From: Amedibacterium intestinale
GTDB lineage: Bacteria; Bacillota_I; Bacilli_A; Erysipelotrichales; Erysipelotrichaceae
Length of the DNA: 64,000 nt
Reading direction: 5' to 3'
NCBI RefSeq assembly: GCF_010537335.1
Contig: NZ_AP019711.1
Span: 372,001 to 436,000, forward strand
The position numbers and the translations under genes are program-made. Shown in pieces: positions 8,880 to 18,466 of this stretch (positions are counted from its first letter, which is position 1; every line of letters begins with the position of its first letter). The notes below the pieces were generated by a model, which was not told the origin of the DNA, did no database searches, and worked only from the letters and a program-made list of their open reading frames with translations.

Positions 8880-9995
8880 TTATTTAACAATTTTTTCTTT
8901 TAAAGATGGGCTGTAGGAAATCGTATATTCCTGGTTTTTATAACTGTTTTCCAAATGTTTTGGAAGTGTGTTCTTGTCATATACCCATAAAGCTGAAGCG
9001 TGAATATCTTTTTCTTTGTTTATTTTATCAAGAAGTGCCTGACCATCTTCCTGTGACATGGTAAACAGTGCGGTTGATAAGATATCAGATGCTGTTCCAT
9101 CATCACATACAATTGACACGCTTCTAGCATATCTTGCCGGCTGCAAAGTTTCTGGATCAATAATGTGATGCATGATGGTTCCATCATATACGTAGAATCG
9201 CTGGTAATCACCACTTGTAACAATAGAAGTGTTTCCAGGTAAAGATAATGATGAAATAGAGTCTGTAGCCTGCTGTGTCAAATCGGGAATCTGTACGCCT
9301 ACAACCCAGTTTGAATCATCTGGTTTATTGCCAAGAAGACGAATATTGCCTCCTCCATTTAAAAATCCATGTTCAACGCCAAGTTCTTTTAAATGCTGAG
9401 ATGTTTTATCAATCGCATATCCTTTCGCAATTGCCCCAACATCAAGCCTTGTTTTAGGATCTGTTAAATAAACTGTATTTTTTTCTTTATCGATCTGTAC
9501 TTTATCCCAGCCGCTATGTTCTTTTGCATTTTCCAAGTCTTCCATGGAAGGAACAAAGGTGTTATCAGGATTCTTTTCTGCCTGTTCTCTAGCCTCTCGC
9601 CATAAATCCATAACACTACCTAAAGTAATATCAAACTTTCCATTGGTTAACTCTGCATATTCTTTTGAAATAGTTAGCAGGTCTATGATATCTTCGTTTA
9701 CCTCAACTGGTTTTTTTCCGGCGTTGTCATTGATTGTTTTAATGTTGTTGATACCTTCATAAGAGTTATAGCGATCAAAGATTTTGTTGTAGTAGGAAAT
9801 CTGTTTTGAAAGCTCATTTTCATATTTTTTAAATTCTTTCTCATTTTTTGTATAAGCAGTAAAAGAAATAACAGTATCAAATCCAAGATTGGTTGCTGTC
9901 ATAGAATGTTTTTCTAAATTCTGCTTTTGTGTACATCCGCTGCTAATACATAAACTGCATATGAACAGAAGAAGTTTCCATTTTTTGTTTTTCAT
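8880..9995 (-). CDS. apbE: ApbE-family FAD:protein FMN transferase, lipoprotein
   Basis: Extracytoplasmic enzyme that moves FMN from FAD onto Thr in SGAT-type motifs of membrane redox proteins. It has 371 aa, with a hydrophobic signal ending in SSGC (Cys about 21) that suggests lipid anchoring; the lipobox is imperfect. Family motifs are visible: TNGKFDITLGSVMDLW, LDVGAIAKGYAIDKT, GFLNGGGNIRLLG, IMHHIIDPETLQPA, and SDILSTALFTM. It lies divergently next to the rnf operon, whose RnfD and RnfG are the expected substrates. The internal ATG at 9995 is chosen because the signal peptide starts there; GGTGAT is a weak ribosome site. Confidence 0.93.
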   Translation of the reverse strand: MKNKKWKLLLFICSLCISSGCTQKQNLEKHSMTATNLGFDTVISFTAYTKNEKEFKKYENELSKQISYYNKIFDRYNSYEGINNIKTINDNAGKKPVEVNEDIIDLLTISKEYAELTNGKFDITLGSVMDLWREAREQAEKNPDNTFVPSMEDLENAKEHSGWDKVQIDKEKNTVYLTDPKTRLDVGAIAKGYAIDKTSQHLKELGVEHGFLNGGGNIRLLGNKPDDSNWVVGVQIPDLTQQATDSISSLSLPGNTSIVTSGDYQRFYVYDGTIMHHIIDPETLQPARYARSVSIVCDDGTASDILSTALFTMSQEDGQALLDKINKEKDIHASALWVYDKNTLPKHLENSYKNQEYTISYSPSLKEKIVK

Positions 9996-10103
9996 ATTAT
10001 CACCAGCAATCATTATAGACAAAAGTTAAAAAAAAATCTATGTAAGAATAGAAAAAAAGATAAAAAATTAAGTGAAATTCTTATCAAATTCTTTATTTTT
10101 TTC

Positions 10104-10207: not shown

Positions 10208-11503
10208 ATGATGTCATTGTTTAAAGGACCAATGCGTCAGCACATACAAGGGCACAAAGAGCTCACAGAACACGTAGAAGCACAGGAGTTGAAAGCAGGG
10301 GAAAAAGTGTATATTCCTTTGTTTTGCGGAGCATCTACAAATCTGGAAGTTTTGGTACAGGAGGGAGATTCTGTTTGCATAGGAACAAAGATTGCCGAAT
10401 GCAAAGAACGTTTTTTTGTGCCAATTTATGCGAGTGTTTCCGGAACAGTTGCTGGAATTGAAAAAAGAATGCACGCTTCTTTGAAGCCGGTTCCTCATCT
10501 TGTTATTATAAATGATGGGCAGTATAAAGAGGTTGCTTCTTTTGAACCGTTGAATTATGAAACAGCGGATAGGGAAACTTTGATTGATTTTATGATGAAT
10601 GCGGGTATCATCGGTTTAGGTGGTGCTGGTTTCCCGGCTTTTGTTAAATATAAGTTTGCGAAAGACGTAGAAAAGCTTATTATTAACGCAGTAGAATGTG
10701 AGCCATTCATTACAGCAGATTACAAAACGATCTTTGCTCAGAAAGAAGAATTTGTAACAGGTTTAATGGCTATGAAAAAAATGGCAATGGCAAAAGAAGC
10801 TGTCATTGCGATTAAAAAAACACATCAGGATTTGATTTCTTTTGTTGAAGAAGCTGTAAAAGGACTGGATGGAGTTTCAATAGCAGCTGTACCAGATGTG
10901 TATCCAATGGGATGGGAACGTGTATTGGTGCGTGAAATCATGCATAAAGAATATGATCGTTTACCTGGAGAAGTAGGAGCAGTTGTAAATAATGCAACTA
11001 CTGCAATTGCATTTGGGGATGCATTATTACATGGACGTGCTATCGTTAAGAAAACAGTAACGGTATCAGGAACTGCTGTGAAAGAACCAAAAAATGTAAT
11101 TGTTCCTGTAGGTATGCCGGCAAGTGAAATTATTGCAGCTTGTGGTGGATATACAGAAGATTCTGTAAAATTGATTGCCGGTGGTCCTATGATGGGAAAA
11201 ACAATTGTTAATGATGCATTTGTTATTGATCGCAATATGAATGCCTTAACGGTTTTGGCAAATAAGCCTTATGACAGTATTTCCTGCTTGCGCTGTGGAA
11301 AGTGCAGTGATCACTGTCCAGCAGGACTACAGCCAGTACGTATCGCACAGGCTGTAAAAGCCGCAGATAAAAAGACAATGGAAAAATTATGCGCTGTAGA
11401 TTGTATTGAGTGTGGTTTATGTACCTATGTATGTCCATCACGTTTGGATGTTACAGAAAATGTACGTAAAGCAAAACGTCAGCTGCAGCTGGCTAAAAAG
11501 TAG
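10208..11503 (+). CDS. rnfC: Rnf complex subunit RnfC
   Basis: Peripheral NADH-binding subunit of the Rnf complex, which couples ferredoxin:NAD+ electron transfer to Na+ or H+ pumping. It has about 431 aa. The NQO1-like flavin/NADH fold includes GIIGLGGAGFPAFVKY and NAVECEPFITAD, followed by a SLBB-like region. Two 4Fe-4S motifs close the protein: CLRCGKCSDHCP and CIECGLCTYVCP. The first gene of a six-subunit operon. Start choice is uncertain: GTG 10202, ATG 10208 and ATG 10211 are all in frame after a TAAGGTG site; 10208 is taken for spacing. Confidence 0.95.
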   Translation: MMSLFKGPMRQHIQGHKELTEHVEAQELKAGEKVYIPLFCGASTNLEVLVQEGDSVCIGTKIAECKERFFVPIYASVSGTVAGIEKRMHASLKPVPHLVIINDGQYKEVASFEPLNYETADRETLIDFMMNAGIIGLGGAGFPAFVKYKFAKDVEKLIINAVECEPFITADYKTIFAQKEEFVTGLMAMKKMAMAKEAVIAIKKTHQDLISFVEEAVKGLDGVSIAAVPDVYPMGWERVLVREIMHKEYDRLPGEVGAVVNNATTAIAFGDALLHGRAIVKKTVTVSGTAVKEPKNVIVPVGMPASEIIAACGGYTEDSVKLIAGGPMMGKTIVNDAFVIDRNMNALTVLANKPYDSISCLRCGKCSDHCPAGLQPVRIAQAVKAADKKTMEKLCAVDCIECGLCTYVCPSRLDVTENVRKAKRQLQLAKK

Positions 11504-11518
11504 GGAGGATAAAGAGAA

Positions 11519-13039
11519 ATGAAGTTTGCATTTAACGTATCACCTAACTTGCGCCAGAAACAGAGTACAAAGCAAATCATGCTGGAGCTGATGATTGGTT
11601 TATTAGTAGTATTTGCTTTTTCTCTTTTCTATTATGGAACAGAATATGGCTCAAGTTATGTATTGCAGGCAATAAAACTATTGGCAGTATCTGTAATTGT
11701 TGCATTGCTTACTGAAATTGCATTTGCCTTTTTTACAAGAAAAGGACAAAAATTTGATTTTGCATATATTAAGAAATTTTTAAGTGGATCTTTTGGATGG
11801 ATAACAGCTATCATTTTGACAATGATGTGTCCTATTAGTATTTCTTTTTATGCGCTTGGAGTAGCAACTTTCTTTGCCATCTTCTTTGCTAAATTGCTGT
11901 TTGGGGGATTTGGAAACAATATCTTTAACCCTGCAGCAGTAGGTAGAGCTGTAATCTTCGCTACATTTGTTGGGGCTTCTACTGATATTATCACAATGGC
12001 TACACCAACAACTGTAATAGCTTCCAGTTATAACTGGCTGGTTGTAGATCCTGAAATGATTACAACTATGATGGATGAAATTGGTGGATTGCCTACCTTA
12101 TTTACAGGTATGTATCCTGGGGCAATTGGAGAAACAAGTGCTCTTGTTATTTTAATCGTTGGTATTATTTTATCTATTCGTAAAGTTATTGACTGGAGAA
12201 TCCCAGTAGTATATTTAGGAAGTATCTTTGTGTTAGCAATGGGAATCGCTTTGTTTAAAGGAGTAGGTTCTTATGGAAGTCTTCCTGGATTTATCTGGTA
12301 TCCATTGTTACATCTATTGACTGGTGGAGTTATGTTTGGAGCTGTCTTTATGTTAACAGATCCAGTTACTTCTCCAACAAGTGCACAGGGAAAATGTATC
12401 TTTGCTTTAGGAGCAGCAGTCTTGACTGTTTTGATTCGTATTAAAGCAAATCTTCCTGAAGGATGCTTATATTCTATTTTATTGATGAATATGCTAACTC
12501 CTATGATTGAACAGGCTTTGGCTGGAAAACAGCTGGCACTTCGTAAAAAAGCATCTATTATTTTTGGCAGTGTAGCTGTTGTTGGCATGGGATGTGTATT
12601 GCTTGCAGCAAATGTCATTGAACCAAAGGCAAAAGAAGTTGAAGAAGCACCTCAGCCTACTTTAGTTACATCAACAGATGAAGATATGCTAAGTATGGAT
12701 GCAAGCATTACCGATACCAAAGAGAATGGAAATGAAGTTGTTTATACGGTAAAGGCACACGGTTATACAGCAAATGAAAATCCAGATGTTTATAACGTGT
12801 TTGAAATTACAGTAGATAAAACAAATAATCAAATTACAAAAATGAGTTTTGTTGAATGTAATGATTCTGATTTTATTAAGACAGCAGTTCAAAGCAATCC
12901 TGAACTAGTAAATGTTGTAAATACAGATTTAAGTAAAGAATTTGAGTATACAACCGAAGATGTTGTTTCAGGTGCTACTTTTACAACAAAATCTGCTATG
13001 CGTGCTATGATCGAAGTTCAGCGCGCATTAGGGCTGTAA
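11519..13039 (+). CDS. rnfD: RnfD with extra C-terminal FMN-binding domain
   Basis: Membrane subunit of Rnf, unusually long at 506 aa against roughly 320-350 for most RnfD. Residues 1-370 are a normal RnfD with about 9-10 membrane segments, GGFGNNIFNPAAVGRA, and an ATP-containing stretch near Thr162 that corresponds to the usual flavinylated Thr. After the last membrane helix an acidic linker leads to an exported domain (about 390-506) ending in DVVSGATFTTKSAM. That is the SGAT motif of RnfG/FMN_bind proteins, with candidate flavin-bearing Thr487. A separate rnfG follows, so the domain is additional rather than relocated. AGGGAGG precedes the ATG. Confidence 0.93.
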   Translation: MKFAFNVSPNLRQKQSTKQIMLELMIGLLVVFAFSLFYYGTEYGSSYVLQAIKLLAVSVIVALLTEIAFAFFTRKGQKFDFAYIKKFLSGSFGWITAIILTMMCPISISFYALGVATFFAIFFAKLLFGGFGNNIFNPAAVGRAVIFATFVGASTDIITMATPTTVIASSYNWLVVDPEMITTMMDEIGGLPTLFTGMYPGAIGETSALVILIVGIILSIRKVIDWRIPVVYLGSIFVLAMGIALFKGVGSYGSLPGFIWYPLLHLLTGGVMFGAVFMLTDPVTSPTSAQGKCIFALGAAVLTVLIRIKANLPEGCLYSILLMNMLTPMIEQALAGKQLALRKKASIIFGSVAVVGMGCVLLAANVIEPKAKEVEEAPQPTLVTSTDEDMLSMDASITDTKENGNEVVYTVKAHGYTANENPDVYNVFEITVDKTNNQITKMSFVECNDSDFIKTAVQSNPELVNVVNTDLSKEFEYTTEDVVSGATFTTKSAMRAMIEVQRALGL

Positions 13040-13051
13040 GGAGGTTAGCGT

Positions 13052-13570
13052 ATGAAAAAAATATTACATCTGACCATATTTCTAGCGTTAGTAGCAGCAA
13101 TTGCCGGAGCAGCGCTTGGAATTGCAAACAGCTTAACTGCACCAGTTATTGCACGCAATGAACTGGAAGCAGAAAAGGATAATTTAAAAGTATTATATCC
13201 AGATGTACCTGATGAAGCATTTGAACAGGTAGAAAAGGATGTATCAGATACAATTCAAAAAATCTTCAAAGTTGAAGGAAAAAGCTATGTTTTTAAAATG
13301 AAGGTAACAGGGTATAAAGAAGGAACTACTTTCCTTGTTGCATTAGATGATAAAGGTACGGTTATCGATTATGTAGGTATTTCCAATGGAGATACACAAG
13401 GATTAGGTACACAGGTACTGGATGCACCTTTCCGTGAATCTTTAAAAGGAAAAGATGCTACATCAGATGAAATCTTAAATGATACAATTTCAGGTGCTAC
13501 ATTATCTAGTAAGCCAGTTCTTGAAGGTATTAAAGAAGCAGCTCAGTATCAAGCTGATAAATTAAAGTAG
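13052..13570 (+). CDS. rnfG: Rnf complex subunit RnfG
   Basis: Rnf subunit with one N-terminal membrane helix and an extracytoplasmic FMN_bind domain, 172 aa. It has the family strand GDTQGLGTQVLD and the flavinylation motif DTISGATLSSKPV with Thr150 as predicted FMN acceptor. Starts 12 nt after rnfD behind AAGGAGG. Slightly short but complete. Expected substrate of the neighbouring ApbE. Confidence 0.94.
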   Translation: MKKILHLTIFLALVAAIAGAALGIANSLTAPVIARNELEAEKDNLKVLYPDVPDEAFEQVEKDVSDTIQKIFKVEGKSYVFKMKVTGYKEGTTFLVALDDKGTVIDYVGISNGDTQGLGTQVLDAPFRESLKGKDATSDEILNDTISGATLSSKPVLEGIKEAAQYQADKLK

Positions 13571-13583
13571 GAGGTGGAACAGA

Positions 13584-14243
13584 ATGAATCGTAAAGAAAA
13601 TTTTACTGCAGGATTCTTACGTGAAAACCCTGTATTCTCATTGTATTTGGGACTATGTTCCACATTGGCAATTACAACTACATTAAATAATGCGATTGGT
13701 ATGGGTGTCGCTGTTATTGCAGTTTTAGTTATGTCAAATGTTATCATTTCTTTGATGCGTAATATTACACCATCTGAAATCCGTATTCCGGTTTATATTG
13801 TAATTATCGCATCTTTGGTTAAGGTTATTCAGATGTTAATCAAGGCTTATGCGCCAAGCTTAGATACAGCTTTGGGTGTATTTATTCCACTGATCGTTGT
13901 TAACTGTATCATTCTTGGACGTGCAGAAGCATTTGCAAGTAAAAACAAAGTGCTTGATTCTGCTTTGGATGGTCTTGGAATGGGACTTGGGTATACAGTT
14001 TCTATCGTTATTATGTCTGGTATTCGACAGTTGCTTGCAACAGGAGCTTTATCTTTTGATAATCCATTCAATGCAGCTCAGAATATTTTTACCTTAAAAA
14101 TTATTCCAGATGATTTCACAATTAGTATGTTCTCACAGCCTGTAGGAGCATTCTGTACATTTGCATGTTTAGCTGCCGGACTTGCAGCATATAAGTCATA
14201 TCAGACGAAAAAGGCAGCAGAAAAACAAAAGGAGGCGAAATAA
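13584..14243 (+). CDS. rnfE: Rnf complex subunit RnfE
   Basis: Integral membrane Rnf subunit, 219 aa, with about six hydrophobic helices. The family signatures ENPVFSLYLGLCSTLAITT and PLIVVNCIILGRAEAFA are clear; the latter contains the conserved Asn-Cys proposed to share an Fe-S cluster with RnfA in the membrane. Spaced 13 nt from rnfG behind AGGAGGTGG. Confidence 0.95.
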   Translation: MNRKENFTAGFLRENPVFSLYLGLCSTLAITTTLNNAIGMGVAVIAVLVMSNVIISLMRNITPSEIRIPVYIVIIASLVKVIQMLIKAYAPSLDTALGVFIPLIVVNCIILGRAEAFASKNKVLDSALDGLGMGLGYTVSIVIMSGIRQLLATGALSFDNPFNAAQNIFTLKIIPDDFTISMFSQPVGAFCTFACLAAGLAAYKSYQTKKAAEKQKEAK

Positions 14244-14246
14244 TTT

Positions 14247-14828
14247 ATGAATTGGAGTAACTTATTTGTCATGCTGATTACTTTTGTTTTCATCAACAAC
14301 GTTGTTTTGAACCAGTTTCTTGGTATGTGTCCTTTTATGGGGGTATCAAAGAAAAGTAGTTCAGCTTTAGGTATGGGGGCTGCGGTTACTTTTGTAATCG
14401 TTGCAGCATCTCTTGTAACATATGGATTGTATTATAAAGTCCTTGAACCACTTGGACTTGAATATATGGACTTAATTACATTTATTCTTGTGATTGCTGC
14501 GCTTGTACAGCTTGTAGAAATGATCATCAAGAAAACTAGTCCATCTTTATATAAAGCATTAGGTGTTTATTTGCCTTTAATTACAACAAACTGTGTTGTA
14601 TTAAACGTTACATTAAATAATATTTCTTTCAAATATGATTTTGCAGAAATGTTAACATATTCTATTGCTATTCCTTTAGGATTTACAATGGTATTATATA
14701 TCTTCTCTACGATTCGTGAGCGTCTGGATGCATGCGATACACCAGTTTCATGGAAAGGAAATCCAATTGCCCTGATTGTAGCAGCTATTATGGCTTTAGC
14801 ATTTAGTGGATTAACTGGGCTGGTATAA
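14247..14828 (+). CDS. rnfA: Rnf complex subunit RnfA
   Basis: Integral membrane Rnf subunit homologous to RnfE, 193 aa, six helices in inverted topology. Signatures VVLNQFLGMCPFMGVS and YLPLITTNCVVLN carry the two conserved Cys expected to bind the intramembrane 2Fe-2S cluster with RnfE. Starts after AAAGGAGGCG; 3 nt separate it from the rnfE stop. Confidence 0.96.
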   Translation: MNWSNLFVMLITFVFINNVVLNQFLGMCPFMGVSKKSSSALGMGAAVTFVIVAASLVTYGLYYKVLEPLGLEYMDLITFILVIAALVQLVEMIIKKTSPSLYKALGVYLPLITTNCVVLNVTLNNISFKYDFAEMLTYSIAIPLGFTMVLYIFSTIRERLDACDTPVSWKGNPIALIVAAIMALAFSGLTGLV

Positions 14829-14831
14829 GGT

Positions 14832-14996
14832 ATGGTACAGGCAGTCATTTATTTAGGAATCCTTGGTGGTATATATGCATTAGTATTCTATCTAAATCAT
14901 AAAACACCATTACCTAAAGGTTGCGAAAATTTAAAGGCAGAATGTGAGGGTTGTCATGACACTTCTTGTTGCAACAACCCTGCACATGATTTATAG
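14832..14996 (+). CDS. Small Cys-rich single-helix membrane protein in rnf operon
   Basis: A 54-residue ORF filling the gap between rnfA and rnfB. Residues 3-21 are a hydrophobic helix (VIYLGILGGIYALVFYL). The tail holds five Cys in CX6CX2CX4CC spacing (Cys31, 38, 41, 46, 47), enough to ligate a metal or Fe-S cluster. The layout resembles FeoB-associated Cys-rich membrane proteins, but homology is not shown. The ATG lies 3 nt after the rnfA stop (ATAAGGTATG), implying coupling. The rnfB ribosome site (AAAGGGGATT) follows immediately. Probably real, given operon packing and composition; function unknown. Confidence 0.75.
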   Translation: MVQAVIYLGILGGIYALVFYLNHKTPLPKGCENLKAECEGCHDTSCCNNPAHDL

Positions 14997-15013: not shown

Positions 15014-15334
15014 ATGTTAAATGCAGTATTAACAGCGCTTTTACTGATGCTTGTATTAGGTGCTATCCTTGGACTAGGTTTAGGAGTTGCAGATAAGTTT
15101 TTGAGTGTGGAAGTAGACGAACGTGTAGAAACTGTAGCTAGTATGCTTCCAAACTACAACTGCGGTGGCTGTGGTTATGCAGGCTGCAGTGGCTTAGCAG
15201 AAGCTTTGGTAAATGGGGAAGTTACTGTTGTAGGAACATGTAAACCTTGTAAACCAGATCAGAAAGCTGCAATTGCTGAATATTTGAATACGACACCTGG
15301 CCCTGATGGTACATGTCTAAAAGTTAAAGCATAA
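15014..15334 (+). CDS. rnfB: Short RnfB lacking ferredoxin-like domains
   Basis: Rnf electron-entry subunit, only 106 aa; RnfB usually has 180-330 aa including one or more 2[4Fe-4S] ferredoxin domains. Present are the N-terminal membrane helix (about 4-25) and the first Fe-S domain: NCGGCGYAGCSGLAEA (Cys50, 53, 58) with Cys76 and Cys79 in CKPC, and an extra Cys101. The ORF ends in a proper stop followed by a terminator, and no ferredoxin-type CxxCxxC sequence follows in any frame before asnA. It is therefore genuinely short, not frameshifted. The source of ferredoxin-docking clusters is unclear. Confidence 0.88.
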   Translation: MLNAVLTALLLMLVLGAILGLGLGVADKFLSVEVDERVETVASMLPNYNCGGCGYAGCSGLAEALVNGEVTVVGTCKPCKPDQKAAIAEYLNTTPGPDGTCLKVKA

Positions 15335-15340
15335 AAAAAT

Positions 15341-15373
15341 GAGGTACACTTGCATTGTGTATCTCTTTTTTTT
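15341..15373 (+). terminator. Terminator of rnf operon
   Basis: GAGGTACAC (15341-15349) pairs with GTGTATCTC (15357-15365), one G-T pair, followed by eight T. Confidence 0.85.
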
Positions 15374-18052: not shown

Positions 18053-18466
18053 ATGAAAAAATTAGCAGCATTAGTATTATTATGTGGTGTAGTATTAGCA
18101 GGATGTAGTTCAGCAAAAGAAGGAAGCGCAAGCGTAACTGGAAGCAATGGTGATGTTACAACTGCTACTGTAAAAGTTGATGGAGATAAAATCACATCTG
18201 TATCTATCGATACAAAACAGAAAGACAGCGACAAAACTAAAAAAGAATTAAAAGAACAGTATAACATGAAAAAAGCTAGTCCTATCAAAAAAGAATGGTA
18301 TGAACAGGTTCTAACTTTAGAAAACTATATTAAAGAAAACGGTGTTGATGCGATTAAGTTAAACAACGAAGGAAAAGCAACAAACGAAGACTTAGTAACT
18401 GGATGTACAATCAGCATTAGCGATATGGTAGATGCAGTTAAAGAAGCTCAGAAAAACGCTAAATAA
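18053..18466 (+). CDS. FMN_bind-like lipoprotein
   Basis: A 137-aa secreted lipoprotein with a perfect lipobox (VVLAGC, Cys18) after a short signal peptide. The mature part resembles a single FMN_bind domain: TVKVDGDKITSVSIDT strand pair, then EDLVTGCTISISDMVDA at the C-terminus. That sits where RnfG-type proteins have SGAT; here it is T-G-C-T with Thr119 as possible FMN acceptor. ApbE in this window could flavinylate it. The small size and strong promoter fit an abundant surface electron carrier as in flavin-based extracellular electron transfer; this role is inference. Confidence 0.65.
   Translation: MKKLAALVLLCGVVLAGCSSAKEGSASVTGSNGDVTTATVKVDGDKITSVSIDTKQKDSDKTKKELKEQYNMKKASPIKKEWYEQVLTLENYIKENGVDAIKLNNEGKATNEDLVTGCTISISDMVDAVKEAQKNAK

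Follow-up and report, generated by a model that had tools for sequence, protein, structure and literature searches.

A small Cys-rich membrane protein encoded in the rnf operon of Bacilli, a candidate accessory factor of the Rnf complex

The Rnf complex is one of the principal enzymes by which gut anaerobes and acetogens conserve energy. Its subunits RnfA and RnfE are described in the literature as homologues of NqrD and NqrE from the Na+-NQR, with the same intramembrane [2Fe-2S] cluster, and Fe delivery to NqrD/NqrE is the predicted function of NqrM (PMC6209661, PMC12174285). The Rsx system of E. coli needs RseC, which contacts RsxB and RsxD and contains a cytosolic CX5CX2CX5C motif, with its last three Cys conserved, that binds an O2-sensitive Fe-S cluster (PMC11729352). 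Rnf-dependent autotrophy likewise requires rseC in C. ljungdahlii, and the gene is missing from several Blautia and Marvinbryantia acetogens (PMC9124969); work cited in PMC11729352 reports that Rnf assembles without RseC in some bacteria. RnfF from R. capsulatus is described as an RseC homologue in its N-terminal part and as a homologue of the flavin transferase ApbE in its C-terminal part (PMC11729352), and this combination of RseC-like and ApbE-like halves fits a maturation role.

Here we analyse a small gene (smORF) from the rnf operon contained in a stretch of 64,000 nt from Amedibacterium intestinale (the window). We lean towards the view that its product is a dedicated Rnf accessory protein, the stand-alone form in Bacilli of a Cys module that Rnf obtains in three mutually exclusive ways (RseC, a tail on RnfE, or the smORF), and that it most likely loads or guards an Fe-S centre of Rnf.

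A small gene between rnfA and rnfB

The operon has the order rnfC-D-G-E-A-smORF-B, with a divergent apbE upstream (Table 1). The smORF product (MVQAVIYLGILGGIYALVFYLNHKTPLPKGCENLKAECEGCHDTSCCNNPAHDL) has 54 aa, and its gene is separated by 3 nt from the rnfA stop codon and by 17 nt from the rnfB start; the earlier note had read these gaps, the single membrane helix and the Cys pattern correctly from the sequence.

Table 1. Coordinates in the window of the rnf operon and of features in its vicinity.
Feature	Position	Strand	Evidence
apbE, flavin transferase, another Rnf maturation factor; divergent from the rnf operon	8880..10022	-	PF02424, 2.2e-73
rnfC	10211..11503	+	TIGR01945, 4e-103
rnfD, with extra C-terminal FMN_bind-like domain	11519..13039	+	TIGR01946, 8e-55; PF04205, 18.4 bits, under cut-off
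rnfG	13052..13570	+	TIGR01947, 8.9e-16
rnfE, without C-terminal Cys tail	13584..14243	+	TIGR01948, 2.3e-66; C-terminus ...YQTKKAAEKQKEAK
rnfA; by homology, RnfA and RnfE together hold the membrane [2Fe-2S]	14247..14828	+	TIGR01943, 1.3e-70, 237.7 bits; PDB 9eri_A, 2e-61
smORF, 54-aa Rnf-associated small Cys-rich membrane protein	14832..14996	+	ORF list; orthologues in 40/60 relatives; dN/dS ~0.07
smORF, single transmembrane helix, residues 2-24	14835..14903	+	AlphaFold2, pLDDT ~96
smORF, Cys module CX6CX2CX4CC (C31, C38, C41, C46, C47)	14922..14972	+	Alignment of 34 homologues and survey of 140 homologues
rnfB, 106 aa, natural short form, TM plus one FeS domain	15014..15334	+	PF04060, 9.5e-12
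Inverted repeat plus downstream T run, just 3' of rnfB; looks like the rnf operon terminator	~15340-15372		Read from the sequence
FMN_bind-like lipoprotein near rnf, which may act as an extracytosolic electron carrier	18053-18466	+	

Comparison with the orthologue from genome G007 revealed 16 synonymous and seven non-synonymous codon changes, with a dN of 0.086 and a dS of 1.22. The smORF is thus a genuine gene under purifying selection, and a spurious ORF arising by chance is ruled out by the dN/dS ratio and by conservation across the class Bacilli. In the relatives examined in which the gene was detected, it lies between rnfA and rnfB, often with overlaps of a few bases, and within Rnf loci from Bacilli it is a standard member of the operon.

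The RnfB from the window is also unusual in its length. Whereas the C-terminal domain of RnfB normally contains 2-7 clusters (PMC12174285), a profile search found no Fer4 match in the window RnfB, and the usual ferredoxin domain is likewise missing at every smORF-bearing Rnf locus where the whole RnfB could be read. The earlier note took this RnfB for a truncated protein; a short RnfB (~89-107 aa) is found in nearly all smORF-linked loci, and its conservation in about 120 loci speaks for a natural form rather than for damage. The Bacilli-type Rnf clade thus has a mini-RnfB consisting of a TM and one [4Fe-4S] domain, with no polyferredoxin domain, and two related loci (L281, L345) show instead a duplicated FeS domain in RnfB. 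As a separate observation, which also concerns loci L024, L035, L036 and L284, the extra FMN_bind-like domain of RnfD carries an SGATFTT flavinylation-like motif, and relatives have a domain of this type as a fusion to RnfE or, apparently, as a separate ORF; the domains suggest an extra extracytosolic flavin on such Rnf complexes.

The AlphaFold2 model of the smORF product (mean pLDDT 82) contains, besides the membrane helix, a short helix spanning residues 34-40. Lys and Arg are richer on the Cys side of the TM in 135 of 139 homologues, and the Cys tail is therefore predicted to be cytosolic, giving a predicted N-out/C-in topology with a short tail in the cytosol. The alignment defines the family signature TM-N22xxT25P26xP28xG30C31E32x5-6C38xxC41x4C46, and conservation is strongest in the Cys residues and in the NxxTPxP linker, not in the helix. 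Loss of the Cys pattern in relatives, which the earlier note had named as an outcome that would speak against its proposal, was not observed: C38, C41 and C46 are invariant and C31 is nearly so, while C47 is not conserved. Likewise, a CxxCx2-9C core was present in all 140 homologues surveyed, bar one doubtful match.

This Cys module could also be that of a stoichiometric electron-transfer subunit, with four Cys binding a [4Fe-4S] or rubredoxin-type centre for a relay between ferredoxin, the short RnfB and the RnfA/RnfE cluster. The CxxCx4C spacing is the same as in the FeS core of RnfB (NCGGCGYAGC), four Cys are found in most homologues (112 of the 140 have the fourth upstream of the core, and nine of the 22 without an upstream Cys have a downstream one instead), and such a subunit would operate next to an RnfB lacking the multicluster domain. 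However, the module comprises just three Cys in 13 homologues, and the spacing of the last two core Cys varies from x2 to x9.

Distribution of the gene and of Cys tails on RnfE

Among the matches listed for 392 Bacilli genomes, smORF and Rnf occurred together in 113, smORF only in two, Rnf only in 13 and neither in 264; five further Rnf-type genomes from a single genus are beyond the matches listed, and with them the Rnf-only class would be 18. The smORF is just downstream of rnfE in 104 of 122 loci. One of the smORF-only genomes (G365) has the gene at a contig start, directly followed by rnfB. Among the Rnf-only genomes, G049-G051 and G281 contain a Cys tail on RnfE (see below), five others (G223, G256, G283, G361 and G116) have divergent mini-ORFs with a TM and Cys in the rnfA-rnfB slot, and G267 has a weak smORF match in this same slot; no rnfB was found in the loci of G285 and G410, the latter being the inspected genome of the five-genome genus, whose Rnf locus is of a second type. 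The sole clear exception is G170, with a short RnfB and no module detected.

In about ten genomes the smORF is located away from rnf and is missing from the genome's own rnf locus; the relocated genes lie between aspS and a dCMP-deaminase-like gene or between phosphoglucomutase and a UDG-like gene, the neighbours being named from their sequences. That the smORF is kept together with Rnf even when unlinked indicates a functional tie between them. Additionally, genomes such as G177 and G083 contain more Rnf loci than smORFs, which is better explained by a trans-acting factor than by a fixed subunit. Overall, unlinked homologues occupy three kinds of chromosomal site (L229, L233, L240, L242, L244 and L245; L230, L232, L238 and L239; L234, L237 and L243), and in many of them the first Cys is replaced by a fourth Cys situated 14-30 residues downstream. 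Second loci of the RnfE/RnfA type were also seen in Bacilli (L252, L273, L275 and L276), with no RnfB found and with an RnfE ending in REL/IKYYE; they are possibly NQR-like complexes.

Searches with the smORF profile did not find the gene in 80 named Rnf loci from outside Bacilli (Clostridia, Bacteroidota and Desulfuromonadota-type genomes). Thus, the statement in the earlier note that standard rnf operons have nothing between rnfA and rnfB is correct for these loci, but not for Bacilli. The best match to the profile in these 80 loci was a C-terminal tail of RnfE (E 0.008; exemplified by CGGDCLHCHGSQC) containing a CxxCx4C module similar to that of the smORF. Among the 73 classified named loci, 13, mostly from Lachnospiraceae, carry such a tail, as does the long-RnfB Rnf of some Bacilli relatives, and none of 71 smORF loci does; the tails are found only with a long RnfB (253-270 aa). 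On the RnfA tree they have at least three origins (a Lachnospiraceae-type clade; L165; and L172 with L266), and the sister lineage of each tail lineage has RseC (L107, L109 and L115). Incidentally, a contig labelled as an uncultured Bacteroides MAG (L157) contains a Lachnospiraceae-like rnf with an RnfE Cys tail, which may be due to misbinning or to transfer.

These distributions bear on two alternative roles. The smORF product might be a structural or assembly peptide for the short RnfB, replacing contacts of its missing C-terminal domain and with the Cys as secondary features; consistent with this, the smORF accompanies a short RnfB at essentially every locus and no long ferredoxin-type RnfB was found alongside it. 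This correlation, proposed in the earlier note, holds in all fully readable loci, but the short RnfB is unlikely to be its cause because the equivalent RnfE tail appears only with a long RnfB. Since, in addition, the Cys and the linker are more conserved than the helix and some short-RnfB Rnf loci lack a local smORF, we consider a peptide of this kind rather improbable. The electron-transfer subunit described above is, in turn, unlikely: the gene can be unlinked and outnumbered by Rnf loci, and the equivalent tail on RnfE coexists with a long, cluster-rich RnfB. Variation in the number and spacing of the Cys, together with the unlinked positions, is better accommodated by the accessory role that we favour, in the supply of Fe or Fe-S or in the guarding of a cluster, than by a fixed redox relay. 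Of the two functions suggested in the earlier note, the assembly subunit is consequently close to our best reading and a fixed extra redox centre is less likely.

RseC and other small Cys-rich families

The RseC profile (PF04246) gave no match over the cut-off in any of the 13 genomes with an RnfE tail, versus 32 of the 37 genomes that carry neither such a tail nor a smORF (Fisher p 2.4e-8, with relatedness ignored). The remaining five of these 37 possibly correspond to incomplete metagenome-assembled genomes (MAGs), and many of the non-Bacilli genomes in the comparison are MAGs. There was also no match over the cut-off in the 60 relatives, and only two in the 392 Bacilli genomes, one of them to the TM part of the profile only and the other borderline, from a genome with no Rnf among the matches listed. 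Of the rows in the RnfA tree, 95 have the module without RseC, 32 have RseC without the module, six have neither and none has both. Phylogenetic pairs yielded five independent comparisons, about three of them informative, which are too few for significance (sign test p 0.25), and in Bacilli the smORF, the short RnfB and the loss of RseC are confounded because the Bacilli-type Rnf is a single clade with a short RnfB. In the sampled genomes, smORF, RnfE tail and RseC are mutually exclusive, with few independent transitions.

By analogy, the smORF product would be equivalent to RseC; we do not claim homology, and neither the window protein nor its 34-member alignment matched PF04246 (RseC_MucC). 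Deletion of RseC in C. ljungdahlii lowers rnf transcription during autotrophy (PMC9124969), so that RseC may be regulatory; as proposed there for RseC, the smORF product might be a redox or iron sensor controlling rnf expression or activity. This is very improbable for a protein of 54 aa with no DNA-binding or signalling domain, and a local biochemical role explains more easily that the module can be fused to RnfE itself. Separately, a Na+-NQR operon from Bacteroides finegoldii (L175) has no annotated nqrM beside it, and a Bacteroides genome (G423) contains RseC with no NqrM match; both observations would be consistent with RseC taking the place of NqrM.

No Pfam or NCBIfam family matched the smORF at a meaningful score, and its profile had no match among solved structures, the Rnf structures matched by RnfA being from other lineages. 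Together with its co-occurrence with Rnf, this bears out the earlier note on a small Cys-rich membrane protein that is new and linked to this complex; among open-licence papers, we found no earlier mention of the smORF or of the RnfE tail. In profile-profile comparisons with column-shuffled controls, the counts were 0/150 for smORF versus RnfE tails, 0/150 for smORF versus FeoB-associated proteins, 9/150 for smORF versus NqrM and 0/150 for NqrM versus FeoB-associated proteins. The strong profile matches cover mainly the CxxCx4C stretch, so that convergence is possible.

An NqrM orthologue was rejected and NqrM is kept as an analogy: the NqrM profile (PF04400) did not match the window protein, and the G[ST]CGG motif that follows the TM in NqrM is absent from the smORF (PKGCENL in the window versus QGSCGGL). 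PF04400 likewise had no match in 149 Bacilli genomes, including that of the window, the control genomes being also without match. As for iron-handling peptides of the FeoB-associated type, the window protein had no match to PF12669 (FeoB_associated), which weakly matched 10 of the 34 homologues (best E 0.005), and a Clostridia match of the smORF alignment profile adjoins FeoB. That such a peptide lies in the rnf operon by chance could draw on these matches and on a profile similarity beyond that of the 150 shuffles, but it is barely credible: the smORF tracks Rnf, also from unlinked positions, and is marked by an NxxTPxPxGCE signature of its own. A misplaced FeoB-associated protein was rejected, as the same genome has two FeoB loci (contig C1, near 248.4 kb and 1619.8 kb; L221 and L222), each with its own small PF12669-type peptide with a TM and a Cys cluster.

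Proposed role and comparison with known systems

In the accessory role that we favour, the smORF tail, with its CxxCx4C core and usually a fourth Cys, would act at the membrane as a binding site for Fe2+ or for a labile Fe-S cluster, and would help to load or keep intact an iron-sulfur centre of Rnf, as proposed for NqrM in Na+-NQR. The target would probably be the intramembrane [2Fe-2S] cluster between RnfA and RnfE. We put forward more tentatively, as a proposition that falls somewhat short of even chances, that Rnf needs a membrane-tethered, cytosolic, Fe-S-binding Cys module provided by three unrelated solutions (RseC, the RnfE tail and the micro-protein from Bacilli); NqrM would play the corresponding part in Na+-NQR, and this ORF would be the first member of a new family of factors for Rnf maturation.

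The pattern of exclusivity bears on how the Fe-S centres of Rnf are loaded and on what RseC does. If the proposal is true, one would expect this protein of 54 residues to be able to replace RseC or the RnfE tail, and it would be explained why many Rnf-bearing bacteria have no RseC; likewise, attempts to express Rnf of Bacilli or Lachnospiraceae in another host may fail unless the right module is supplied. The gene, which is short and had no match in the family libraries searched, is easily overlooked in annotation.

Like the smORF product, RseC is tied to Rnf and holds a cytosolic Cys cluster, tethered to the membrane, in which the last three Cys are conserved, and the genomes encoding it form, among Rnf bearers, the set complementary to those with smORF or tail. 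RseC differs in being of ~150 aa, with two TM helices arranged in a hairpin with both termini cytosolic and with the Cys module N-terminal of them, whereas the smORF product has a third of this size, a single TM followed by the Cys module, and other Cys spacing. The RnfE tail is likewise part of Rnf, and a TM helix leads into its CxxCx4C module, which is predicted to be cytosolic, but it is fused to RnfE, occurs with a long RnfB and lacks the NxxTPxPxGCE linker. NqrM (PF04400, DUF539), a maturation factor of Na+-NQR, also has one TM and four conserved Cys, and it is genetically tied to the NqrD/NqrE pair, homologous to RnfA/RnfE; it differs in its GSCGGL motif, other Cys spacing and a weak profile similarity. 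The FeoB-associated proteins (PF12669), small and with a TM and a Cys cluster, are the closest by profile comparison, although they are linked to feoB and have a different linker. Cys-rich elements at FeoB are found separately or as a C-terminal domain of FeoB (PMC8749426), the same alternation between separate and fused forms as that of the Rnf module.
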